DNA of 64,000 nucleotides, taken from positions 2,705,659 through 2,769,658 of the forward strand of contig BQKD01000001.1 of the NCBI GenBank assembly GCA_022834735.1, written 5' to 3'. How positions within the stretch are numbered: the first letter of the stretch is position 1; each line of letters begins with the position of its first letter. Positions 3,013-57,328 of this stretch are shown here, in pieces. The notes under the pieces are model-generated. The model did no database searches. It was not told where the DNA came from and saw only the letters and a program-made list of their open reading frames with translations. The stretch is from Erysipelotrichaceae bacterium OPF54 (lineage in GTDB: Bacteria; Bacillota_I; Bacilli_A; Erysipelotrichales; Erysipelotrichaceae). The translations under genes and the position numbers were made by a program.

Positions 3013-3041
3013 ATTATACTTGTTCGTTAATTAAGCTATAG
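3013..3041 (-). promoter_or_regulatory. Probable ffh promoter, with its -35 zone inside the attachment core
   Basis: Read on the minus strand, a perfect TATAAT lies at 3013-3018, about 70 bases before the ffh ATG. The -35 zone expected 16-18 bases further upstream falls at about 3035-3041, inside the left attachment core. No good TTGACA match is visible there, so the promoter call rests on the -10 element and on position. Confidence 0.45.
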
Positions 3042-3056
3042 TGAATATATGAAACA
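3037..3056 (+). repeat. attL: left attachment core
   Basis: Contains AGTGAATATATGAAACA (3040-3056), repeated exactly at 9744-9760. Including the preceding TATA/TACA, 19 of 20 bases match. It lies next to the 3' end of the integrase gene, where the attachment site of tyrosine-recombinase elements usually is. Three AGCTATA heptamers (3034, 3061, 3068) lie around this core and could be accessory recombinase sites. Confidence 0.75.
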
Positions 3057-3109
3057 TTAAAGCTATAAGCTATAAATATCACTTTAAATAAAGTCTTTTT
3101 TAATGCTTC

Positions 3110-4261
3110 CTAATTGAATACTTTTAAATTTGGGGCATTTTTGGTGTCAATGTTTCCGAAAACCTTGTTAATTGCATTCTTTTTGGCTTCCTCGTTTGTA
3201 TGGGTATAAACATCAAGGGTAGTCTGTGTGTTACTGTGTCTTGCGAGTTTTGAAGCGGTTTTTATATCACAACCCGATTGTACAATATTTGTTATGTAGG
3301 TTTGTCGTAAGCAGTGAGGATGAAAATAAAACCCTAGTTTATTACCGATTTTTTTGCAAGCTCTTCCAAAGGCAAATTCATGAATAAAATCTCCTGATTC
3401 ATCGCAACATACCAAGTCATAAGGATCAAAGGCAAACCATTCAAGTAAAATTGTTTTCAACGGTGCAGGAAGTGGCAAAACGGCTTTACTCGCTTTTGTT
3501 TTCATATTTTCGGTTAAATACATTTCGGATTTCTTCAAATGGCGAGATTCTAACTTTTTAGAAATAGTAACTACGTTATTTTCAAAGTCAAAGTCTGTTT
3601 TTTCGAGAGCCAAGATTTCAGAAATTCTAAGCCCAAGATAATATCCGCAATAAGTGGCTATACAGTAGGAATATTTATTGAAGTTTCCGCGCATATCAAG
3701 AAAGCAACTTATGGCGTTCTCTAGTTCGTCATACGTTAAAACGTGTGTTTCGACATTCCTTTCCTTATAGGAAACTTTAATGTCGTGCATTGGGTTATTT
3801 TGAATATAACCGCATTTTAATGCGTGTCGGAAAGCCCGGTTAAAGATAATTTTTTGTGCAGTGACTAAACTTTTTCCTAATGTTTTTAACTGATTGAAAT
3901 GTGTTTGCAACATTGTATAATTAATTCGATTAATTGGAATTTGAGCAATACGTTGACTTTTGACATGATTTTTAAAAACGTCATTGTAATGAATTATGGT
4001 ATTTCGCGATAAACTGTTTTTTTCAAGTTCCATAGATTCCAAGAAACAATCATTCAAAGTTTTAAGGGTATCCTTTTGCAAAACGCCTTTTGTTTGAAGT
4101 TCGTGCTCAATTTCTACACCATGCGCCCGAGCTTCTTTTTTAGTTTCAAAGCCACTTTTTGAATAGGTTTGTTTAATCCCGTATTCATCAACATAATTAA
4201 TTTTTACGCGGTATGTATATCCGCTTTTTGCCCTTTTGGCAACTCTTTTTTCTATTCTCAT
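3110..4261 (-). CDS. int: Tyrosine recombinase (integrase)
   Basis: Site-specific recombinase of the phage/ICE integrase family, 383 residues, expected to integrate and excise the element. An arm-binding N-terminal region (residues 1-60, YVDEYGIKQTYSKSGF followed by KKEARA) is followed by a SAM-like core-binding domain (about 65-165) and the catalytic domain. The full active-site set is visible: R212 (GLRISE), K257 region, H316-x-x-R319, H342 (ARHSN) and the nucleophile Y352 (DVYTHT). GGAG lies seven bases before the ATG. The last codons overlap a 26-base sequence that is repeated near the right end of the element. The catalytic residues appear intact, so the enzyme is probably active. Confidence 0.95.
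   Translation of the reverse strand: MRIEKRVAKRAKSGYTYRVKINYVDEYGIKQTYSKSGFETKKEARAHGVEIEHELQTKGVLQKDTLKTLNDCFLESMELEKNSLSRNTIIHYNDVFKNHVKSQRIAQIPINRINYTMLQTHFNQLKTLGKSLVTAQKIIFNRAFRHALKCGYIQNNPMHDIKVSYKERNVETHVLTYDELENAISCFLDMRGNFNKYSYCIATYCGYYLGLRISEILALEKTDFDFENNVVTISKKLESRHLKKSEMYLTENMKTKASKAVLPLPAPLKTILLEWFAFDPYDLVCCDESGDFIHEFAFGRACKKIGNKLGFYFHPHCLRQTYITNIVQSGCDIKTASKLARHSNTQTTLDVYTHTNEEAKKNAINKVFGNIDTKNAPNLKVFN
3123..3148 (+). repeat. Left copy of a 26-bp direct repeat (candidate integrase arm site)
   Basis: TTTAAATTTGGGGCA, three bases (TTT), then TTGGTGTC. The same sequence with AAA as the middle three bases is at 9548-9573, in the same orientation, so 23 of 26 bases match. This copy overlaps the final codons of int. 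Position near both ends suggests arm-type binding sites for Int or an excisionase; this is inference. Confidence 0.6.
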
Positions 4262-4311
4262 TTTTTAACTCCATTCTTATAATTGCTAAATGCTATTAAA
4301 TAACCGATTTC

Positions 4312-4447
4312 AAGGAGTTAAAAACTCCTTATATCATTCACAATTCGTTTGTTGGTAGCTTCTGAATTGTGGTAACATAAGGATGTAAATATGCGTGTGG
4401 AAACTTATATTTACATCCGTCCCGTGTTGGTAGCGCGGGGCTTTTAT
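4312..4447 (+). other. Cluster of four stem-loops between int and the repressor
   Basis: Four inverted repeats follow each other. AAGGAGTT/AACTCCTT (4312-4330, 3-nt loop). CACAATTC/GAATTGTG (4339-4371), whose loop holds GTTGGTAGC. A perfect 12-bp arm pair (4381-4392 and 4407-4418) with loop GCGTGTGGAAACTT. CCCG/CGGG (4421-4439), again with GTTGGTAGC in the loop, followed by a T-rich tract, so it looks like a plus-strand rho-independent terminator. No credible protein is encoded. It could be a small RNA ending at 4447, a leader, or a DNA structure used in replication. Confidence 0.5.
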
Positions 4448-4449
4448 TT

Positions 4450-5205
4450 TTATAAAAGATCATTAAGCCTTAATTGTTGTTCAAAATCCAACTTGTCAAA
4501 TTCGTTTTCAAACTCTAATTCTTTCAACTCGTTTTTTAATCTTGAAAGTTTGCTAAGGATAAAAAAAGCTTCATTATCTTTTGCTCTACCTTTTTCATTT
4601 TGCTTTAATTGTTCTCTTTCTTGTTTCAGAAGTTTTATTTTGGTTATAAGCATTTGCTTAGTGACAGGGCATGTTCTAGCAATTGAAATTAGTGTGTCCG
4701 TCAGCTCCTCTTCTATGTATTTTCTATAAATAAGTCGCCCTTGACTAGGTGGAATAATCACATCATTTTCCGCTTGGAACATTAGAATAACTTCTGAAGT
4801 GTGGCTTTTCTCAGCTATCATGTAAGAAAAATACTCAAGAAAGCGTATTAATTTGTTTTTGTTTTGAAGTAAATTATCAAGAGCCATTTTTTCGGAGATA
4901 AATTTTCCTTTTTCAACTTCCGTATTTAAAGAAGTAATGTTTTGTACAGCAGAAACACTAAGCCCTAATTCTTGCGCTAAATCAGCATTTTCATAATCTG
5001 TTGATCTAATATCACTCAGCCCTAAAAAATAATCAGTAGACACATTAAAAAATTTACACAGCTTTATAAGCGTATCAGTAGAAATGCTTTCAGATTTTCC
5101 TTTAATAATTTTAAAAATAGTATTGGTGGAAACTCCCGTTTCATTAGATAACTTTTGATAAGAAATACCTCTTTCCTCTAAAAGTTCTTTTAATCGTTCT
5201 TTCAT
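4450..5205 (-). CDS. XRE-family repressor of the element
   Basis: A 251-residue DNA-binding protein. Residues 1-65 form a Cro/C1-type helix-turn-helix (YQKLSNETGVSTNTIFKIIKG, then TLIKLCKFFNVSTDYFLG). The C-terminal two thirds are helical and charged, ending in a coiled-coil-like segment (about residues 180-245), and lack the Ser-Lys peptidase motif of LexA/CI repressors. Loss of repression is therefore unlikely to involve self-cleavage; an antirepressor interaction, as for satellite Stl repressors, is possible. AAGGAG lies eight bases before the ATG. It is divergent from the replication genes, the usual place for an immunity repressor. Confidence 0.82.
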   Translation of the reverse strand: MKERLKELLEERGISYQKLSNETGVSTNTIFKIIKGKSESISTDTLIKLCKFFNVSTDYFLGLSDIRSTDYENADLAQELGLSVSAVQNITSLNTEVEKGKFISEKMALDNLLQNKNKLIRFLEYFSYMIAEKSHTSEVILMFQAENDVIIPPSQGRLIYRKYIEEELTDTLISIARTCPVTKQMLITKIKLLKQEREQLKQNEKGRAKDNEAFFILSKLSRLKNELKELEFENEFDKLDFEQQLRLNDLL

Positions 5206-5398
5206 TTATATACTCCTTAAATATCATATTTTATCTAACTTATAACCTTATCATTTACAATTATAAATTTGTTTGCGTAACGATTAATGACAATTTACAA
5301 TATAAATAGGTGGTAGTTAATATAATGATGTTTACATTTAGATTATATAATGAGTTATTTTGAACAGTCAACCACCACCACACAGAAAGGAGAAAAAA
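5206..5398. promoter_or_regulatory. Divergent control region between repressor and early genes
   Basis: An AT-rich region with candidate operators. The motif ATTTACAAT recurs (5253-5261 and 5293-5301) and TTTACA occurs again at 5331. TATAAT-type -10 elements are at 5321-5326 and 5346-5351 on the plus strand and at 5260-5265 on the minus strand. GGTGGTAGTT (5309-5318) is inverted as AACCACCACC (5370-5379). Spacing to clear -35 boxes is imperfect, so individual promoters are uncertain. Confidence 0.5.
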
Positions 5399-5578
5399 AT
5401 GACACAAGCAAATCAAGAACTAAAAAACTATGCACGCTCTAAAAAGGTTCCCTATTGGCGCATTGCGGACGCTTACGACGTTTGCGAAAACACCATTGCA
5501 AGAATGTTCCGTAAAGAACTACCGCAAGAAGAGAAAGAAAAAATCATGAAAATTATTGATGAAATCGCAGAACAGTAG
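5399..5578 (+). CDS. Small helix-turn-helix protein
   Basis: A 59-residue protein starting MTQANQELKN, behind a good ribosome-binding site (AGAAAGGAG, 5393 region). The centre (VPYWRIADAYDVCENTIARMFR) reads as a helix-turn-helix, with an acidic-basic helical tail. It is the first gene rightwards of the control region, where phage and satellite elements usually place a Cro-like or activator protein. The exact function (Cro-like repressor, activator or excisionase) cannot be decided from the sequence. Confidence 0.75.
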   Translation: MTQANQELKNYARSKKVPYWRIADAYDVCENTIARMFRKELPQEEKEKIMKIIDEIAEQ

Positions 5579-5588
5579 AAAGGAGAAT

Positions 5589-5626
5589 AGTAAATAAATA
5601 TTAATTTCCACACGCATTTATTTACT
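5589..5626. repeat. Stem-loop partner of the 4381-4418 hairpin (shared loop sequence)
   Basis: A perfect 11-bp inverted repeat, AGTAAATAAAT (5589-5599) and ATTTATTTACT (5616-5626), with a 16-nt loop. On the minus strand the loop begins GCGTGTGGAAA, exactly as in the loop of the plus-strand hairpin at 4381-4418, and the arms also share the TAAAT-rich stem. The two structures face each other across the repressor and control region. Confidence 0.7.
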
Positions 5627-5637
5627 CAAAAAAACAC

Positions 5638-5901
5638 ATGTATTTAGACAATCTCAAAATGTTAACCACTGACGAAGTGGCGGAAATCCTGAACGTTCAC
5701 CGCAACCAAGTACAAATGTTCAAGGACCAAGGCATATTAAAAGGAACAAAGACCGGTAAAAATTTTATGTATTCCCAAGAGGAAGTATTGAACTTTCAAC
5801 GCAGATTTAAAGGCTATAACATTTCTAATCTAACAGAAATAAGAAAAACCCTTCTTGCTATGGAAGAAAACAACGATCAAGGAGCTTCCCGATATGTCTA
5901 G
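5638..5901 (+). CDS. Excisionase-like winged helix (MerR-type HTH_17) protein
   Basis: An 87-residue protein. Its N-terminal half reads as the small MerR-like domain common in excisionases and AlpA-type activators: LTTDEVAEILNVHRNQVQMF, then GTKTGKNFMYSQEEVLNF. No clear Shine-Dalgarno precedes the ATG at 5638 and one could also start at 5659 (MLTTDEV). The 5589-5626 stem-loop lies just upstream. In satellites such proteins act as Xis or as activators of the rep operon; which applies here is unknown. It overlaps the next gene by eight bases. Confidence 0.7.
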   Translation: MYLDNLKMLTTDEVAEILNVHRNQVQMFKDQGILKGTKTGKNFMYSQEEVLNFQRRFKGYNISNLTEIRKTLLAMEENNDQGASRYV

Positions 5902-6172
5902 GAGAAATTTCACAAGAGAGGTCGTAAATTCGAACCTTTTCCAAGAACTCCCGTTGTCTACACAGGCACTTTATTTTCATTTCGGAGTAAACGCAAACGC
6001 AGACGGCTTCATTTCGGAGCCGTTAAGCGTTATTAAGAGGATTAACGCCTTAGAATCCGATTTGCACAATTTAGAGGCTGTAGGGCTCGCTATAAGGCGT
6101 GAAACGGGCGGTATTATGATTATGTACGCAACACCCGAAAGAAAAGCAAGTCAAGAAAAGGAGAGTGCATAA
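5894..6172 (+). CDS. Replication-initiator-like winged helix protein (short paralogue of the next gene)
   Basis: A 92-residue protein (MSRRNFTREVVNSNLF) resembling only the N-terminal winged-helix part of the following gene: LSTQALYFHFGVNANADGFI here against IPARLLYFDLGMRADDEGFV there. It starts at ATG 5894, nine bases after AAGGAG, inside the end of the upstream gene, and stops directly before the next ATG. Such domains occur at the start of phage replisome organisers. It may be a stand-alone DNA-binding subunit or the residue of a duplication. Confidence 0.6.
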   Translation: MSRRNFTREVVNSNLFQELPLSTQALYFHFGVNANADGFISEPLSVIKRINALESDLHNLEAVGLAIRRETGGIMIMYATPERKASQEKESA

Positions 6173-6985
6173 ATGGCAAAAAAAAGAATGTTCAACCTGG
6201 ACGCAGTGAATACAGACAGGTTCTTAGATATGTCTATCCCGGCTAGACTGTTGTATTTCGATTTAGGAATGAGAGCAGATGACGAGGGGTTTGTAGCTTC
6301 ACCTAACATGATTATCAGAAGTACAGGAAATAGCAAAGAAAGTTTAGATGAGCTAATTAGAAAAGGTTATGTGATCCCGTTTAAAAGCGGGGTTATTGTC
6401 ATTACTCATTGGAAAATGAACAACTACCTACAAAAGGATCGCTTCACACCCACTATTTATACAGAGGAAAAAGAACAGCTTTCAATAGATGAAAACAAAG
6501 TCTATTCAATGAGAAAAAACGTTATGGATACAACATGTATCCAAAATGTATCCAAAATGTATACACAGTATAGTATAGATAAGAATAGTAAAGATATATA
6601 TAGTCATGAAAAACGACCAAAAATAAAGAAAAAAGGTTCTAAACATAAAAATCTTTTTGGAAAACTTCCGCAGGATCAACAAGAAGAATTGACAAGGATC
6701 ATAAACCATTTGAACGAATCCACAGGAAGCAATTACAGACCCAATACAAAAGATACAGTTATCAAATTTAAAAATCTGAAAGAGCTTGATTATAAAGAAG
6801 AAGATTTTTTCAAAGTGATTGATAACAAAGTAAAAGATTGGACTAATTCAGAACAGTCTAAATATTTACGTCCTGAAACCTTATTTCGAGAATCGCATTT
6901 TGAATCCTATTTAAATGAACGAGTACACGTTAACAAGGAAAAACAAAAAGTCGATTTATACGCAGGCTTTGAAAGCATAAAGTGA
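6173..6985 (+). CDS. Phage-type replisome organiser / replication initiation protein
   Basis: A 270-residue protein. The N-terminal ~110 residues form the winged-helix domain seen in Firmicutes phage replication proteins (AKKRMFNLDAVNTDRFLDM, followed by ITHWKMNNYLQKDRF). The C-terminal ~75 residues (IINHLNESTGSNYRPNTKD, then LRPETLFRESHFESYL) match the conserved phage C-terminal domain of replisome organisers (Phg_2220_C type). The linker is lysine-rich. Expected role: bind the element's origin and load the adjacent helicase. AAGGAG lies nine bases before the ATG, which abuts the previous stop codon. Confidence 0.82.
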   Translation: MAKKRMFNLDAVNTDRFLDMSIPARLLYFDLGMRADDEGFVASPNMIIRSTGNSKESLDELIRKGYVIPFKSGVIVITHWKMNNYLQKDRFTPTIYTEEKEQLSIDENKVYSMRKNVMDTTCIQNVSKMYTQYSIDKNSKDIYSHEKRPKIKKKGSKHKNLFGKLPQDQQEELTRIINHLNESTGSNYRPNTKDTVIKFKNLKELDYKEEDFFKVIDNKVKDWTNSEQSKYLRPETLFRESHFESYLNERVHVNKEKQKVDLYAGFESIK

Positions 6986-6994
6986 GGCGAGAAC

Positions 6995-8209
6995 ATGGAA
7001 AAATCAAAACAAGAATTTTTAGAGCAGAACGTTATTTCAATGGCAATCACAAACCTTGAAAAGCTCAAAGATCCGAATTTAAAACCTGATTTATTCGTTA
7101 CACCGGTTCACCAGGAAATAATCAAAGTGTGCAAGGATGTTTTGCACGAAAAAGGGAATGTATCTAGTATTCCTTATGATGATATTATTCCTAAACTCCT
7201 GGAAAGCTCACAAGATTACTTTTTAAAAATAATGGATCAAGCCTTTCAGTATGGCGACTATGATAATTACCTTTCTCAGCTTAGAGAACAAAAAGCGATT
7301 CGGGATATTCACCGATTGAGCAAAGAAGCATTACAGGAAGATACGACGCTTGACGAGCTGAAAACAAAAATAGCAAAAATCGAAGACTCCAATTATACGT
7401 CTAAATTAAAAAAATGGACGTTTGACGAGTTATGCACCATTCCAAGAAAAAGCGAAGAATCGCTTATTTTTGAACGCGACAAGTACATGCAATATGTACG
7501 GCCAAAAAAGCATACAGTAAACGTGATAGGCGCTAGAACAGGCGTAGGAAAGACAGCGTATGCCCTAAACCTAGTTAATGACCTTGGAGAACGCTATAAA
7601 GTATTGTATTTCAATCTTGAAATGACGAATATAGAAATTATCCGTAGGTTATTAGCCTTACAAAGCAATGTAGATATTAACAAGATTGAAAACAACGATT
7701 TAACCAAAGAGGAAAACACACGATATGTAGACGCTTGTTGGAGATATGTAAATAGATTGAATATTGCTATTATTGATGGTTCAAAAAGCATTGATTCAAT
7801 ACGCAGGATCATAGCAAAAGAATCAAGAAAAGGGCATTGTGTTGTATTCGTCGATCATATAGGATACATCAAAAATAAGGGATTCAATAACACCCGTGAA
7901 TCAGTACAACACACTATGATTGAGCTGAACAATATCACAAAAGATTTTGATTGTACCGTGTTCGCTGTTTCTCAGTTAAACCGAGGAGCAGAAGGAGAGC
8001 AACCACAATTAAAAGACCTGAAAGATTCTGGAGAGGTGGAACAAACCGCACACTCCATCACTTTGCTATATGACGAAACAAATAATAGAGCGTCCCAAAA
8101 TTCTAAATACAAACTTATTTGTGCCAAGAACAGAGGAAGGCTTGGAATAAGTGACGTTTTATTCCATAAAGCGAAGCAATGCTTTATTTATGAAGGAGCG
8201 AATAAATGA
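6995..8209 (+). CDS. DnaB-type replicative helicase
   Basis: A 404-residue RecA-fold helicase. Residues 1-110 resemble the DnaB N-terminal primase-interaction domain (LFVTPVHQEIIKVCKDVL) but are short. The ATPase core shows Walker A GARTGVGKT (179-187), Walker B VVFVDH (283-288), the QLNRGAE arginine-finger region (about 327-333) and the DnaB-like LKDSGEVEQTAH segment. It lies nine bases after the initiator gene and would unwind the element's origin during autonomous replication. It is a mobile-element DnaB relative, not the host dnaB, which is normally linked to other genes. Confidence 0.88.
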   Translation: MEKSKQEFLEQNVISMAITNLEKLKDPNLKPDLFVTPVHQEIIKVCKDVLHEKGNVSSIPYDDIIPKLLESSQDYFLKIMDQAFQYGDYDNYLSQLREQKAIRDIHRLSKEALQEDTTLDELKTKIAKIEDSNYTSKLKKWTFDELCTIPRKSEESLIFERDKYMQYVRPKKHTVNVIGARTGVGKTAYALNLVNDLGERYKVLYFNLEMTNIEIIRRLLALQSNVDINKIENNDLTKEENTRYVDACWRYVNRLNIAIIDGSKSIDSIRRIIAKESRKGHCVVFVDHIGYIKNKGFNNTRESVQHTMIELNNITKDFDCTVFAVSQLNRGAEGEQPQLKDLKDSGEVEQTAHSITLLYDETNNRASQNSKYKLICAKNRGRLGISDVLFHKAKQCFIYEGANK

Positions 8210-8589
8210 AACCAAAATCAAACAAAATCAGACCGTTTAATTTGCAAATATTTGCCGATTGCGACATTATCACCGAATTTTTAAAAAGAAATCGTTTTCC
8301 ATCAGTTCAAGAATTGGAAAAGATGAAGCCCGAAGAGTTTAAAGACGCAGTTATTGAATTTCGGTACAGGCTTTACGATCCGAACGAGCGGGAGCAATTC
8401 GGATACGATCGAACCGCAAAAGAAGGAACAATAGCAGAATTCTTGAAACGTGAAACATTCCTGAATCCGAACAGTTTAGAAAGAATGGACGCTGAAGAGT
8501 TCAAAAAAGCCGTTATAGCGTTTCGTGAATTGCTGAACGATCAAACCGAGCGTAAAAAGTTCGGATACGATACAAATTACAACCGATAA
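8206..8589 (+). CDS. Unknown protein made of two tandem ~47-residue repeats
   Basis: A 127-residue protein overlapping the helicase stop by four bases (ATGA). After the opening MKPKSNKIRPFNLQIFAD come two copies of one module, about residues 22-68 and 76-122. Each contains EFLKR, a P/N-rich turn, LE-M-EEFK-AVI-FR, and ends ER-KFGYD or ER-QFGYD. The phrase NLQIFAD resembles the NLQLFA-type N-terminus of many phage capsid and scaffold proteins, which is suggestive but weak. I recognise no family. Its position between rep and terS-like genes is where satellites carry phage-interference or capsid-remodelling genes. Confidence 0.7.
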   Translation: MKPKSNKIRPFNLQIFADCDIITEFLKRNRFPSVQELEKMKPEEFKDAVIEFRYRLYDPNEREQFGYDRTAKEGTIAEFLKRETFLNPNSLERMDAEEFKKAVIAFRELLNDQTERKKFGYDTNYNR

Positions 8590-8639
8590 ACGAATAGAGC
8601 GTCGGAAAAGGCACTTCTTTTAAAGAGAGGAGAAAAGCA

Positions 8640-9098
8640 ATGAACGAAAAGAATTTGATTCCTAACGCAAAGAGAACACCCGAAGAACGCCGAGAAAACG
8701 CCACAAAAGCAGGAATAGCAAGCGGAAAATCAAGAAGGCAAAAGAAAAAGCTAAAGCAAGCCTTGGAAACAATTATGAATGAAAAAGTACCTCAAAGCAT
8801 GGATAAGGTACAAAATATGCTTCATGAATTCGGGATCAATGAAGAAGAAAGCACTTTTCAAATTGCTTTAGCTGTTATGTTAGTAAAGAAGGCATTAGAC
8901 GGAAACATTCGTTCAGCCGAGTTAATCGCAACGATAACGGGACAAACCGCAGATCATGATTTGAAAGAACGAGAGTTCACGCATAAAAAGAAAATGGATC
9001 GTCAAAAGATTGATATTGTTGATAAGACGTTAGCCGATCCAAGCGCACTGATTGCGGTGTTGAAAGGAACAAATGAAAAAGAAAACGTTATGCATTAG
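8640..9098 (+). CDS. Small-terminase-like phage protein
   Basis: A 152-residue basic, helical protein with AGAGGAG upstream of the ATG. The N-terminus (NAKRTPEERRENATKAGIASG, then KSRRQKKKLKQALETIM) and the middle (FQIALAVMLVKKALDGNIRSAELIATITGQ) match a group of Firmicutes phage proteins found just before the terminase large subunit and often annotated as small terminase subunits. In PICIs a stand-alone TerS redirects helper-phage packaging to the island. No large subunit follows. The assignment is by resemblance only. Confidence 0.5.
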   Translation: MNEKNLIPNAKRTPEERRENATKAGIASGKSRRQKKKLKQALETIMNEKVPQSMDKVQNMLHEFGINEEESTFQIALAVMLVKKALDGNIRSAELIATITGQTADHDLKEREFTHKKKMDRQKIDIVDKTLADPSALIAVLKGTNEKENVMH

Positions 9099-9254
9099 CT
9101 CTTTCCTTTTAATACGCTCACAGACGCGCAGAAAGGGCACAATAAGCGTTAGAATGTCTTTTTTAAAAGAAGAATCGCTCTATTTTGACATTTTAAGCTA
9201 TTCTTCATTAAATGTAATTTGTTGTGATGGGATTGTTCGAAAATAAAATGAGTA

Positions 9255-9263
9255 TGATATAAT
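9255..9263 (+). promoter_or_regulatory. Extended -10 promoter upstream of the 52-residue gene
   Basis: TGATATAAT gives a TG-n extension followed by a consensus TATAAT (9258-9263). A weak TTGTTC (9233-9238) lies 19 bases upstream, as expected where an extended -10 compensates. The start codon at 9315 is about 45 bases beyond the predicted start site, giving the last gene of the element its own promoter. Confidence 0.6.
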
Positions 9264-9314
9264 AGAAATCGTACATTAAATAGGGTTAATCTGAATCTTT
9301 AGAAAGGGAAAAGA

Positions 9315-9473
9315 ATGGAAAAAACAGCTATTGAATTTAGAAAACTACCGGATGGAATAAAAGCGTTCCGCTTGGATCGAAACAACAAGACACTCTATGT
9401 GATAGATCCAAAACAACAAGAAGGAAATGAAATTGAAAATTTAAATATGCAAGCTAAAGCATTGGAGGAGTGA
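9315..9473 (+). CDS. Small unknown protein of the mobile element
   Basis: A 52-residue protein beginning MEKTAIEFRKLPDGIKAFRL and rich in charged residues. AGAAAGGGA lies just before the ATG, and an extended -10 promoter lies about 50 bases upstream. It stands apart from the replication cluster and has its own promoter, so it may be expressed in the integrated state like accessory or superinfection genes of other elements. No family recognised. Confidence 0.6.
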   Translation: MEKTAIEFRKLPDGIKAFRLDRNNKTLYVIDPKQQEGNEIENLNMQAKALEE

Positions 9474-9547
9474 ACAGAACACTTCTCTTTTTTCTTTTTG
9501 ATGTAAGAAAAAGTGCGTAAATCCTTAATAATAAAGCTGAAACGAAG

Positions 9548-9573
9548 TTTAAATTTGGGGCAAAATTGGTGTC
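9548..9573 (+). repeat. Right copy of the 26-bp direct repeat
   Basis: TTTAAATTTGGGGCA, AAA, TTGGTGTC; same orientation as 3123-3148 and identical except for the central three bases. It lies 167 bases inside the right attachment core in non-coding DNA, whereas the left copy overlaps the end of int. Confidence 0.6.
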
Positions 9574-9645
9574 TCTTGGACGTAAAATGGGACATTTCAC
9601 ACTATATATAAAATGTGCATGTACAGGCTTTCAGTATATATATAA

Positions 9646-9668
9646 TAAAAAAGCCTAATAAATAGGCT
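9646..9668 (-). terminator. Leftward terminator-like hairpin near the right end
   Basis: AGCCTA (9652-9657), five-base loop, TAGGCT (9663-9668); on the minus strand it is followed by six T residues (9646-9651). It would stop leftward transcription entering the element. The remainder of 9474-9740 is AT-rich DNA with TATATA runs and no gene that I can support. Confidence 0.4.
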
Positions 9669-9740
9669 AAAAAATGGTTTAAAACAGCTTGAAATCGGTA
9701 TGAAATAGCCACAAACGACGACAATAAAGAGCCGTTATGT

Positions 9741-9760
9741 TACAGTGAATATATGAAACA
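9741..9760 (+). repeat. attR: right attachment core, overlapping a host start codon
   Basis: Contains the same AGTGAATATATGAAACA as attL (9744-9760). The ATG of the downstream NlpC-type gene (9753-9755) lies inside it, so the first codons ATG-AAA-CA are part of the core. Integration therefore keeps the coding sequence but replaces everything upstream of the core. Confidence 0.75.
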
Positions 9761-10610
9761 CAGAAAGATCAATTACAGACGTCTAGGACTTGCCGGTTTA
9801 TGCCTCCTGCTTCTGAGCGCAGGGACCTGTTTCGGGTTTTCCCGGCTGTTTTCGCATCCTGAAAAGAATTTGCCCGTCCAGAATACAGCGAGCGGAACAG
9901 CCGATCTGTCCACCCTGCTCGAGATGGCAAAACAGCCGCTGGGAAAAGTAATGTATATCTGGGGCGGCGGATGGAACGAAGAGGACACCGCATCCGGGCC
10001 CGAAACCAGGCAGCTCGGGCTGGCCTCCTCCTGGATCGAATTTGCCGATGCGCAGGACGCCTCCTATAATTTCCAGGACCATTTATATGAGATCCATAAC
10101 GGGCTGGACTGCTCAGGCTATATCGGGTGGGTGCTGTACAATACTTTCGAGCATAAAAAAGGAGAAAAAGGCTATGTCGATTTTTCTGATCGTATAGAAC
10201 CTGACCTTGCTGATCTTGGCCTGGGCACAGTGATCCCTGCCGATCAGATCGAAAGCTATGACCCGGGCGATATCATGGCCAATTCAGACCATATTTATCT
10301 CGTGCTTGCGCCTTGTCAGGACGGAAGCATCCTGCTGATCCACTCCTCTCCTCCGGGGGTGCGTCTTTGCGGAACTCCGGCAGCCGACGGAAACCCGGAC
10401 AGCCAGGCTCTTGCGCTGGCCCGGCACGTCATGGCCGGATACGCGCCGGACTGGTATGCAAAATACCCGGATTGTACGGCAGACTACTCGTATCTGACAG
10501 AGTATGACCAGTTTCGCTGGAATCCCGACAAAATAAAAGATGAAAACAATTTAAGGAACAAATCCGCAGAAGAGATTGTTTCCTATTTGTTTTCATCTTT
10601 GGAAAACTGA
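9753..10610 (+). CDS. NlpC/P60-like secreted cell-wall hydrolase
   Basis: A 285-residue protein with a basic N-terminus and hydrophobic segment (about 11-30), giving a signal peptide or membrane anchor. The catalytic domain carries the NlpC/P60 pattern: C120 in LDCSGYIGW, H180 in NSDHIYLVLA and a further polar H197 (LLIHSS). Such enzymes cleave peptidoglycan stem peptides or amides. No Shine-Dalgarno precedes the ATG, and the whole upstream region is now element DNA joined at attR, so expression is likely altered. It converges on and overlaps the GNAT gene by 28 bases. Confidence 0.75.
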   Translation: MKHRKINYRRLGLAGLCLLLLSAGTCFGFSRLFSHPEKNLPVQNTASGTADLSTLLEMAKQPLGKVMYIWGGGWNEEDTASGPETRQLGLASSWIEFADAQDASYNFQDHLYEIHNGLDCSGYIGWVLYNTFEHKKGEKGYVDFSDRIEPDLADLGLGTVIPADQIESYDPGDIMANSDHIYLVLAPCQDGSILLIHSSPPGVRLCGTPAADGNPDSQALALARHVMAGYAPDWYAKYPDCTADYSYLTEYDQFRWNPDKIKDENNLRNKSAEEIVSYLFSSLEN

Positions 10611-11083
10611 TATGCGAGCCTTGGATCTCCGTTGGCCAGATAAATGATCCCGGTATGAATGAAGCCGTTGCGTCGGATACAATTCTGCATAAATACATTA
10701 TCCTTATGCGTATCAATCTTTAAATTCGAACAGCGGGACTTGCAGTAGGATAAAATAAAATTTCCGATCCCTTTTGCCGTATGGGCAGACGCAACTTTGT
10801 GGACTGCCGCATACGGTTTTTCGTTCAGCCAGCAGCCGTCGATATATGTATATGTCGGATCTTCGCCAAAGATCAGAGCAAAGCTCCCTTCGATCTGTTC
10901 GTTGTTCTCCACCACATAAAGCTCGCCGTTTTCGATATTTTCAGCCAGATCGATCCGATTCGGCTTTCCTTCATTCCATTGATCCGGATTTCCGTGCGTA
11001 TGCATGAAGGTCCGGGCATTTTCATAAAGGACATCCAGGATGTCCAGATCTTCATATCGCGCCTTTCTTACCTTTCTTGTCAT
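10583..11083 (-). CDS. GNAT-family N-acetyltransferase
   Basis: A 166-residue acetyltransferase. It starts MTRKVRKARYEDLDILDVLY; the acetyl-CoA binding region is the VHKVASAHTAKGIGNFILSY stretch with its A-x-G-I-G loop, followed by IDTHKDNVFMQNCIRRNGF, the typical beta4-alpha4 end. The substrate cannot be inferred. It is the last gene of a five-gene minus-strand operon and overlaps the glycosyltransferase gene by four bases. Confidence 0.85.
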   Translation of the reverse strand: MTRKVRKARYEDLDILDVLYENARTFMHTHGNPDQWNEGKPNRIDLAENIENGELYVVENNEQIEGSFALIFGEDPTYTYIDGCWLNEKPYAAVHKVASAHTAKGIGNFILSYCKSRCSNLKIDTHKDNVFMQNCIRRNGFIHTGIIYLANGDPRLAYQFSKDENK

Positions 11084-19391: not shown

Positions 19392-20921
<1,530 letters not shown>

Positions 20922-21043
20922 ATATTGACTCTTTTTTTGTTTCTGTTATCTCTTTTTTTCTTTTCAGGTGTTTCTCAAGAAATCGACGTGTAATTTTAGT
21001 TCTCTCGTACTTGTACGTTTTTTTCTTCTAAAACTATTCGTTT

Positions 21044-21063
21044 CTGTCAGGTTTTCAAAGATC
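21044..21063 (-). promoter_or_regulatory. rRNA leader boxA-like / processing element
   Basis: The minus strand reads GATCTTTGAAAACCTGACAG, resembling the boxA-type leader upstream of 16S that supports antitermination and RNase III processing. A related sequence recurs in the 16S-23S spacer. Confidence 0.5.
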
Positions 21064-21094
21064 GTCCCTCGCTGCCGTTTCCGACAGCTCGTTT

Positions 21095-21123
21095 ATACTA
21101 ACTCTTCCTTTTCGTTTCGTCAA
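21095..21123 (-). promoter_or_regulatory. rRNA operon promoter P2
   Basis: On the minus strand, TTGACG (21118-21123), a 17-base spacer and TAGTAT (21095-21100). It lies about 170 bases upstream of the mature 16S 5' end, downstream of P1. Confidence 0.65.
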
Positions 21124-26017: not shown

Positions 26018-26888
26018 GATATGTCTCCTCTGTCTGACGTACTGCCTGCTCAAGGAGCTGCTGCGGGTCGGCGCCGGCATGTTTCGTCTTTACGATCCGG
26101 TCCGGATCGCCGAACACCGTATACAATACGTATTCCTGCCCGCGGCATTCCATATAGGCTCCGATCGGAATGGAGCACGAACCGTTCATCCGGCTCAAAA
26201 AAGCGCGTTCAAACTGTACACATATATTTTCCTTTTCGTCGCAAAGTTTTGCCAGCTGATCAAAAAGACGGTCATTATCCTTTCTCAGCTCTATGGCCAG
26301 CGCCCCTTGTCCGGCAGCCGGCACGCATTGCCAGGCAGAAAAAGTTTGACAGATCCGCTTTTCCAGACCGATCCTTTTTAATCCGGCTTCAGCCAGCACG
26401 AGCGCATCGTATTGTCCTGAATCCAGCTTTTCCAGACGGGTCAGGATATTGCCTCTTATATTTTTATATTCCAGATCGTTTCGCAGCTGTTTGAGCTGCA
26501 GTATGCGCCGGAAGGATCCGGTTCCTACCACACTGCCGGACGGCAGAGAAAAGAAATCTCCTTTCCGGCTGACGAGCGCGTCGCGGGCGTTTTCGCGAAG
26601 GATCACAGGCGCAAGCACAAAACCTTCGGGCAGAACAGACGGAATATCTTTCCACGAATGCACGGCCAGATCGATCTTTCCGTCGAGCAGCTGCTGCTCG
26701 ATTTCCTTGACGAACAATCCTTTATCATGAATTTGATGAAGCGGCCGGTCAAGGATCCGGTCTCCTTTTGTGTGTATGACAACAAGCTCATACGTGATCG
26801 AAGGATCGTGAGCCTGCAGAAACTGTCCGACCTGTTCTGCCTGCGCTTTGGCCAGAACGCTTCCTCTTGTTCCTATTCTTACATGCAT
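26010..26888 (-). CDS. hemC: Hydroxymethylbilane synthase (porphobilinogen deaminase)
   Basis: Polymerises four porphobilinogens into hydroxymethylbilane. 292 residues. N-terminal VRIGTRGSVLAKAQAEQV, substrate-binding arginines in GTGSFRRILQLKQLR and IRGNILTRLEKLDSGQYDA, and the dipyrromethane cofactor cysteine in LSRMNGSCSIPIGAY. Twelve bases separate it from hemA. It is slightly shorter than E. coli HemC but has all the domains. Confidence 0.96.
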   Translation of the reverse strand: MHVRIGTRGSVLAKAQAEQVGQFLQAHDPSITYELVVIHTKGDRILDRPLHQIHDKGLFVKEIEQQLLDGKIDLAVHSWKDIPSVLPEGFVLAPVILRENARDALVSRKGDFFSLPSGSVVGTGSFRRILQLKQLRNDLEYKNIRGNILTRLEKLDSGQYDALVLAEAGLKRIGLEKRICQTFSAWQCVPAAGQGALAIELRKDNDRLFDQLAKLCDEKENICVQFERAFLSRMNGSCSIPIGAYMECRGQEYVLYTVFGDPDRIVKTKHAGADPQQLLEQAVRQTEETYHG

Positions 26889-55088: not shown

Positions 55089-55114
55089 AAAGGACAAGCT
55101 TTTCTGCCTGTCCT
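55089..55114 (-). terminator. Terminator of the left-copy 90-residue gene
   Basis: On the minus strand AGGACA (complement of 55109-55114), twelve-base loop, TGTCCT (55090-55095), then six T. The stem includes the stop codon. The equivalent right copy (57029) lacks the distal arm because the repeat ends before it. Confidence 0.75.
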
Positions 55115-55397
55115 AATCGAAACCTTCTTCGCTTCCTACCATGCTGCCATTCATATAACCGCAGGAGAAGCCGTCCTGAAAGCTCTGGTCGACCACTTTC
55201 TGCATCGTATTCATCAGCAGTGTTTTCTGGTCGTCATCAAGCTTCAATGATCCGGACAATGAATCGACCGCCTGCGCCAGAGCCGCATCGTCCTTCTTTT
55301 TCGCGTCTTCCGGCGTCATTTCCTCGTCCATCTTGCTCATATATTTTTTGATATCTTCACCAATATGTTTGAAAAAGTGTGCCATAGTTTCTCTACT
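55098..55397. repeat. 300-bp direct repeat, left copy
   Basis: Matches 57029-57328 over exactly 300 bases, same orientation; by eye six positions differ (about 98% identity). It spans the whole coding region of a 90-residue protein. The left copy includes the downstream terminator side and breaks off just before the ribosome-binding site. Between the copies lie 1631 bases of different DNA. Confidence 0.95.
55113..55385 (-). CDS. 90-residue conserved-looking protein, left copy (promoter side lost)
   Basis: Starts MAHFFKHIGEDIKKYMSKMD. Acidic, helical, with a glycine-rich tail (DGFSCGYMNGSMVGSEEGFD) and one cysteine. It differs from the 57044 copy at two residues (K/E near 18 and D/N near 71). 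The repeat junction at 55397 removes the AAGGAG site that precedes the right copy; upstream is now the transposase remnant, so this copy is probably not well expressed. It retains the original terminator. Family unknown. Confidence 0.7.
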   Translation of the reverse strand: MAHFFKHIGEDIKKYMSKMDEEMTPEDAKKKDDAALAQAVDSLSGSLKLDDDQKTLLMNTMQKVVDQSFQDGFSCGYMNGSMVGSEEGFD

Positions 55398-57028: not shown

Positions 57029-57328
57029 GCTTTTCTGCCTGTCCTAATCGAAACCTTCTTCACTTCCTACCATGCTGCCATTCATATAGCCGCAGGAGAA
57101 GCCGTTCTGAAAGCTCTGGTCGACCACTTTCTGCATCGTATTCATCAGCAGTGTTTTCTGGTCGTCATCAAGCTTCAATGATCCGGACAATGAATCGACT
57201 GCCTGCGCCAGGGCCGCATCGTCCTTCTTTTTCGCGTCTTCCGGCGTCATTTCCTCGTCCATCTCGCTCATATATTTTTTGATATCTTCACCAATATGTT
57301 TGAAAAAGTGTGCCATAGTTTCTCTACT
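57029..57328. repeat. 300-bp direct repeat, right copy
   Basis: Pairs with 55098-55397. The right copy retains the ribosome-binding site and promoter side (57327 onwards) but lacks the original terminator arm, which is beyond its left edge. Confidence 0.95.
57044..57316 (-). CDS. 90-residue conserved-looking protein, right copy (intact promoter side)
   Basis: Near-identical to the 55113 gene (MAHFFKHIGEDIKKYMSEMD start). AAGGAG (complement of 57327-57332) lies ten bases before the ATG, so this is the copy likely to be expressed. After its stop codon the sequence departs from the left copy and the intrinsic terminator stem is missing; the islet terminator at 56953-57004 may serve instead. Protein family not recognised; acidic, helical, cytoplasmic. 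Confidence 0.75.
   Translation of the reverse strand: MAHFFKHIGEDIKKYMSEMDEEMTPEDAKKKDDAALAQAVDSLSGSLKLDDDQKTLLMNTMQKVVDQSFQNGFSCGYMNGSMVGSEEGFD

Follow-up and report, generated by a model that had tools for sequence, protein, structure and literature searches.

We analysed a 64,000-nucleotide stretch of the chromosome of the gut-type Erysipelotrichaceae bacterium OPF54 (contig BQKD01000001.1, positions 2,705,659 to 2,769,658; hereafter, the window), which carries a 6.7-kb element bounded by direct repeats. This element is probably an intact integrated phage satellite belonging to a small Erysipelotrichales family. A small RNA and a leader hairpin would control its excision and replication, a small terminase subunit (TerS) would direct packaging, and the host protease Prp would process an additional protein.

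The boundaries are set by an exact 17-bp repeat, AGTGAATATATGAAACA, which forms the attachment (att) cores at 3040–3056 (attL) and 9744–9760 (attR) and is the sole 17-mer common to both 600-bp end windows. It is embedded in a 26-bp stretch with 88% identity (3031–3056 and 9735–9760); the first-pass annotation had therefore seen a real repeat, although its length of 20 bp was slightly generous. The element has a GC content of 34.3% versus 45.8% and 50.2% for its flanks, and all of its open reading frames (ORFs) are intact. A second 26-bp direct repeat (88% identity) overlaps the 3' end of the integrase gene at 3123–3148 and recurs at 9548–9573; we explain these copies as putative arm-type integrase sites, and sites with other sequences are placed in the same way in four relatives (L075, L077, L081 and L089). 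In congener G001, ffh is directly followed by a homologue of the right flanking gene (90% and 60% protein identity to the window, respectively), whose start codon lies within ATATGAAACA, the end of the att core. This junction is unoccupied in G001, which makes the element an insertion at the start codon; in the window, that codon (9753) is overlapped by attR. The insertion keeps the reading frame of the flanking gene but swaps out everything upstream of the start codon. The gene itself (9753–10610), cut off in this way from its native upstream region, encodes a secreted-looking product with a DCSGY motif and without an NCBIfam match.

Reading leftward are a tyrosine integrase (int; 3110–4261, minus strand, 383 aa; PF00589, Arm-DNA-bind_4, phrog_1) with the catalytic residues R-HxxR-H-Y all present (LRISE, HCLRQTY, HSN, VYTHT) and an XRE/Cro-CI-type repressor (xre; 4450–5205, minus strand, 251 aa; HTH_3, PF01381, 7e-16; phrog_8). 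The divergent right operon (plus strand) opens with a 59-aa protein (5399–5578; phrog_17740, 1.5e-10) that has homologues in L075, L077, L081, L083, L086 and L089. It continues with an 87-aa excisionase-like HTH_17 protein (xis; 5638–5901; HTH_17, 2e-7; excisionase phrog_66/4691), which scores 27.5 bits against TIGR01764, slightly below the 28.8 cut-off. Replication would be served by a DnaD-like helicase loader or initiator (6173–6985, 270 aa; phrog_5708, 4e-56; Phg_2220_C, 3e-23), preceded by a 92-aa extra copy of its N-terminal domain (5894–6172; phrog_8489, 1e-16; phrog_5708, 1e-15), and by a DnaB-type helicase (6995–8209, 404 aa; DnaB_C, 2e-40); a two-gene loader arrangement is also annotated in Lactococcus phage P1045. 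A two-repeat protein, a TerS homologue and a 52-aa ORF without a convincing family match (9315–9473, plus strand) follow. In profile scans of the element products, there was no match to a portal, large terminase subunit (TerL), capsid, tail, lysis, relaxase, coupling-protein or primase family. No plasmid match was found, PADLOC returned nothing beyond HTH and ATPase cross-matches, and a non-exhaustive search showed no multi-copy short repeat array or iteron origin in the element. The first-pass annotation had listed an integrase with a full active site, a divergent XRE repressor, a replication initiator with a DnaB-type helicase and a small-terminase-like protein, and had reported no structural, packaging-ATPase, lysis or conjugation genes; all of this stands, and what that inventory lacked was a candidate RNA gene and its putative target hairpin.

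The int–xre spacer folds with a z score of −5.8 relative to shuffles (plus strand) and holds a candidate small RNA gene of 70 nt (4379–4448, plus strand), composed of a hairpin (4381–4418), an intrinsic terminator (4419–4441), which was also called by a consensus scan, and a U run. The RNA is oriented antisense to int and xre and does not overlap int itself. Related elements have TATAAT(A/T)GGAG in this spacer, together with a hairpin and an intrinsic terminator with its U run. A covariance model built from L079 and L086 only finds the window copy (28 bits, E = 2e-4 over 380 kb), and a six-sequence model finds L077, L075, L083 and L081 at the same position. In the six-sequence alignment, 99% of cells are paired and 11 of 20 pairs show two-sided changes; shuffled and slid controls stay far below these values, although the alignment was fitted to the structure model and the figures therefore lean its way. 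It replaced earlier MAFFT alignments, which were structurally misaligned. Scans of the window, L075, L076, L077, L086, L089 and L097 placed the RNA in no Rfam family; an Rfam tsr25 match elsewhere in the element (9049–9209) was rejected at 21 bits versus a cut-off of 63.

The putative target is a leader hairpin, GTAAATAAAT...ATTTATTTAC (5591–5626, plus strand), situated between a Shine–Dalgarno-like AAAGGAG (5579–5585) and the xis start, with a loop complementary to that of the small RNA. Complementarity in the window comprises 12 contiguous nt, and 20 of 23 nt between 5595–5617 and 4391–4413. Complementary leader hairpins occur in seven elements (the window, L075, L076, L077, L081, L089 and L097), with a match of 27 of 28 nt in L076 and stretches of 25–31 nt with a few mismatches in L077, L081, L089 and L097. 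The target lies at the junction of xis and the replication gene in these last five elements and at the end of dnaB in L075. Control windows reached the observed complementarity in 0 of 300 cases for the window, L075, L077, L089 and L097 and in 2 of 300 for L081. The loops differ among elements with complementarity kept, and RNA and target have different basal stems. The cognate duplexes (mean, −36 kcal/mol) form the single best of 5,040 assignments in a permutation test that is partly circular because the targets were picked as best matches. These patterns suggest antisense control of excision and replication: RNA and target would both be transcribed and would pair, and excision and replication would drop as a result. 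Translation control is the likeliest mode in the window, because the hairpin sits between AAAGGAG and the xis start; leader attenuation is possible in the other elements.

Similar RNAs also occur outside satellite-sized elements. One lies next to int on a prophage contig of 42.7 kb (L096/L242, 464–539), and two contigs of 34 and 37 kb (L244 and L245; 51% integrase identity) have, by eye, an RNA-like region upstream of int with no convincing target. The RNA is therefore not confined to satellites. The pattern TATAATAGGAGYRYAAA gave at least 120 matches in viral contigs; 12 of the 79 new loci read had stable folds, none with an integrase match. Of 12 genome matches to a wider pattern, 4 fell in loci lacking a related integrase and were treated as chance hits.

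Packaging would depend on the TerS homologue (8640–9098, plus strand, 152 aa; phrog_2412, 6e-30). This family carries no name in PHROGs. In Streptococcus phages EJ-1, Javan23 and Javan316 and in the prophages of two genomes from the same bacterial family (G088 and G045), terL directly follows a homologue of the window protein, for which reason the small-terminase-like label is right. Searches of the source genome found neither a G088-type TerL nor a portal of the SPP1 or HK97 type (PF05133, PF04860); the portal searches were positive in control genomes. The only other TerS found is a duplicate copy. With no matching TerL and no portal, a helper would need to come from outside. Profile searches gave no PDB relative of TerS, and its single-sequence structure model has a predicted local distance difference test (pLDDT) score of 48.

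The two-repeat protein (8206–8589, plus strand; repeats 27 of 47 identical) begins MKPKSNKIRPFNLQIFAD and carries at residues 11–18 the Prp-cleavage signature FNLQIF'AD, within the peptide KIRPFNLQIFADCD and with the candidate cut after F. Prp is a host protease that cuts this signature in ribosomal protein L27 and in the scaffold (MEENKLKFNLQFF'AD; KFNLQFF'AD) and capsid proteins of phage 80alpha (PMC9405229). Near the N terminus, the signature is present in 2 proteins among the 2,493 ORFs of the fetched loci, the two-repeat protein and a prophage head scaffold in G045. The first-pass annotation had described the protein as unfamiliar, and indeed Pfam, PHROGs, NCBIfam and PADLOC yielded no relative, nor did phages, viral contigs, genome contigs or 273 family genomes; a structure model with pLDDT 56 matched nothing in BFVD with an E value below 4. 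The scaffold-like signature had been missed. Because FNLQIF'AD matches the signature of the 80alpha scaffold, our best guess, held at slightly less than even confidence, is a role in head assembly, for example redirecting or mimicking the helper scaffold. The gene is also a candidate for phage interference.

Several observations weigh against the satellite and its proposed RNA control. By eye, the window RNA has a weak promoter (TTGTTG-18-TAACAT), which the consensus scan did not pick up. L083 has the RNA without a target above control, and L086 does not exceed control either, with just 9 nt at the start of rep. The Streptococcus pyogenes prophages tested show no complementary leader target above control. 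No resident helper phage was found in the source genome, and the structure models of TerS and the two-repeat protein are both poor.

Two other explanations of the paired hairpins deserve weight, each of which we consider unlikely. The hairpins could act as DNA, either as inverted Xis, Int or repressor sites or as origin hairpins: within one element, both sites carry a single motif in opposite orientation, and the RNA interpretation is drawn from sequence. However, in the window a terminator and U run follow the int-side copy only, and in relatives TATAAT precedes that copy; furthermore, the loops match but the basal stems of RNA and target differ, and the loops vary between elements. Alternatively, the RNA could be real and silence the integrase in cis, as proposed for the antisense RNAs that RNA sequencing detected upstream of S. 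pyogenes prophage integrase genes (PMC6431027). Those RNAs share the position, the orientation and, in the prophages read, a similar two-hairpin layout: in L250 (1198–1507), L251 (1225–1348) and L252 (1225–1344), a promoter, hairpin and terminator upstream of int are probably the published small RNAs. Against silencing of int, the window RNA does not overlap this gene, and the loop matches the right-operon leader in seven elements.

Integrase relatives with approximately 34–42% identity mark bounded elements with a common order of int, xre, the 59-aa protein, HTH_17, one or more replication genes and dnaB or dnaC. Across the bacterial family and order these relatives are 6.5–12 kb long and att-bounded (repeats of 17–19 bp in L075, L077, L083, L089 and L090) and carry at most two genes for phage heads or packaging. 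They include L083 (6,541 bp in G003), with no recognised packaging gene, L089 (10,239 bp in G140), L090 (8,855 bp in G125), with a minor head protein and a TerS-type N terminus, and L081 (G052), also with a TerS-type N terminus and with a less clear right repeat. In L077 (12,032 bp in G267), we observed two skipping-rope RNAs (RF02924) in opposite orientation (9765–9847, plus strand; 10616–10712, minus strand). L075 (9,059 bp in G070) has a 19-bp att in a tRNA end and encodes a head scaffold (phrog_172) and a major head protein (phrog_422) at 7818–9144 without a portal or TerL; it is possibly a capsid-forming mini-satellite in Gram-positives.

A decayed prophage that kept int, immunity, replication and terS by chance after deletion of its late genes is an improbable account of the element. 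All protein modules except the two-repeat protein do have relatives in full phages. Yet such a deletion is unlikely because the family recurs, with at least five related elements of 6.5–12 kb sharing the gene order and having their own att repeats, and because neither an att core nor a putative arm-type site is missing; the ORFs are intact, and the integrase is closer to the closest family elements (34–42% identity) than to the listed deposited phages (26–29%). The first-pass annotation had named a related intact prophage containing the element as a fragment, or the lack of a reconstituted empty site, as evidence that would refute the satellite reading; we found no such prophage, and the empty site exists in the congener. 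An integrative mobilizable element (IME), self-transmitting or mobilised by conjugation and carrying terS by accident, is very improbable: the element encodes both a helicase loader and a helicase and the 6.5-kb L083 lacks a recognisable phage packaging gene, yet the products include neither a relaxase nor a coupling protein, there is no plasmid match, and TerS, head proteins and a scaffold-like signature occur across the window and its sister elements. The relaxase or conjugation gene expected of an IME or integrative and conjugative element is likewise absent from the products.

The best class for the element, judged from its sequence, is a Gram-positive phage satellite that would work like a phage-inducible chromosomal island (PICI). 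It shares with Gram-positive PICIs and Staphylococcus aureus pathogenicity islands (PMC6092414) an int left of a divergent master repressor and transcribed leftward with it, rightward xis and replication genes, terS (carried by some of those islands), a flanked att site (here with an empty site in a congener) and no late genes. It differs in its size of 6.7 kb, its DnaD-like loader and DnaB in place of the primase–initiator (pri–rep) module and the lack of a visible iteron origin, and it adds the antisense RNA–target pair and the unrelated two-repeat protein. We do not claim strict PICI membership, because the pri–rep module is absent and helper-dependent induction and packaging are predicted; the satellite part of the first-pass proposal of a PICI-type helper-dependent island was thus upheld and the PICI part was not. 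Under a definition from Streptococcus thermophilus (7–20 kb, with an integrase, att repeats and modules for regulation and replication but lacking structural genes; PMC13376191), the gene content agrees and the 6.7 kb falls slightly below the stated range. Streptococcus satellite Javan103 (PMC6813308; MK448317) shares an integrase, regulator, replication and small genes and a phrog_2412-like homologue, but is 10.7 kb long, has a DnaI-type loader and a separate annotated terS, and its integrase is 23% identical to that of the window; it gave no match to the RNA model and no RNA–target pairing above control. Vibrio phage-inducible chromosomal minimalist islands (PICMIs; PMC10803314) are similarly minimal (about 6 kb) with reduced excision and replication gene content, but are Gram-negative, use a fis-adjacent site, carry other genes and are packaged as concatemers without capsid-remodelling genes, whereas the window element encodes a TerS of its own and may encode a head-assembly protein. 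The nearest parallel for the RNA is the P4 CI RNA, which acts against seqA/seqC (PMC4825925), also in a phage satellite and also by pairing with a replication-operon leader, the pairing here being predicted. The CI RNA, however, is processed from the primary transcript of the leader it controls, whereas the gene for the window RNA stands apart from that leader, between int and xre, and the window element encodes a protein repressor as well.

Taken together, these features allow a life cycle to be proposed for the satellite. The att repeat and the empty site show that the integrase placed the element at the start codon of the secreted-looking protein gene beside ffh. The XRE repressor would shut the divergent right operon in the resident state, and the 70-nt RNA would form a loop–loop complex with the pre-xis leader hairpin, blocking excision and replication transcripts that escape the repressor. 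Upon entry of a helper phage of the EJ-1-like TerS–TerL type, repression would be lifted and leader transcripts would outnumber the RNA. Xis and Int would then excise a circle, which the DnaD-type loader and DnaB would replicate, and the satellite TerS would, by homology, steer the helper TerL to satellite DNA. The two-repeat protein would be cut by Prp at FNLQIF'AD like a phage scaffold, serving in capsid redirection or as a decoy scaffold.

The assembly of the source genome calls for some care. From 5962 rightward, the window recurs with 100% identity at G000:C1:2825251 (offset of 113,631 bp; traced at least as far as window position 26711), and window positions 19474–21104 recur upstream of the window at G000:C1:2700000–2701630. 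Such perfect long duplications, one of which breaks inside the element, are probably an assembly error or an unresolved rearrangement; the window copy, whose genes are continuous across 5962, was taken as the true one. The source genome is 3.2 Mb with 9.27% contamination, versus 2.3–2.4 Mb in congeners. Elsewhere in the window, we observed a 300-bp direct repeat with 98% identity (55098–55397 and 57029–57328).

These results indicate that a near-minimal gene set still suffices for a recurring family of bounded satellites outside the cocci. A more tentative reading, to which we give slightly less than even odds, is that this Gram-positive family and certain prophages whose integrase is of the same type employ an antisense RNA encoded in trans as an RNA immunity code, its loop being specific to each element and aimed at a leader hairpin at the xis–replication junction; the window element would also supply helper heads with a scaffold mimic processed by Prp. 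Were the two-repeat protein processed in this way, the host protease that matures ribosomal protein L27 would serve the satellite too. If the immunity code is real, satellite RNA-based immunity, best known from enterobacterial P4, would have arisen independently in Gram-positive elements, and its easily swapped loops would define superinfection groups.

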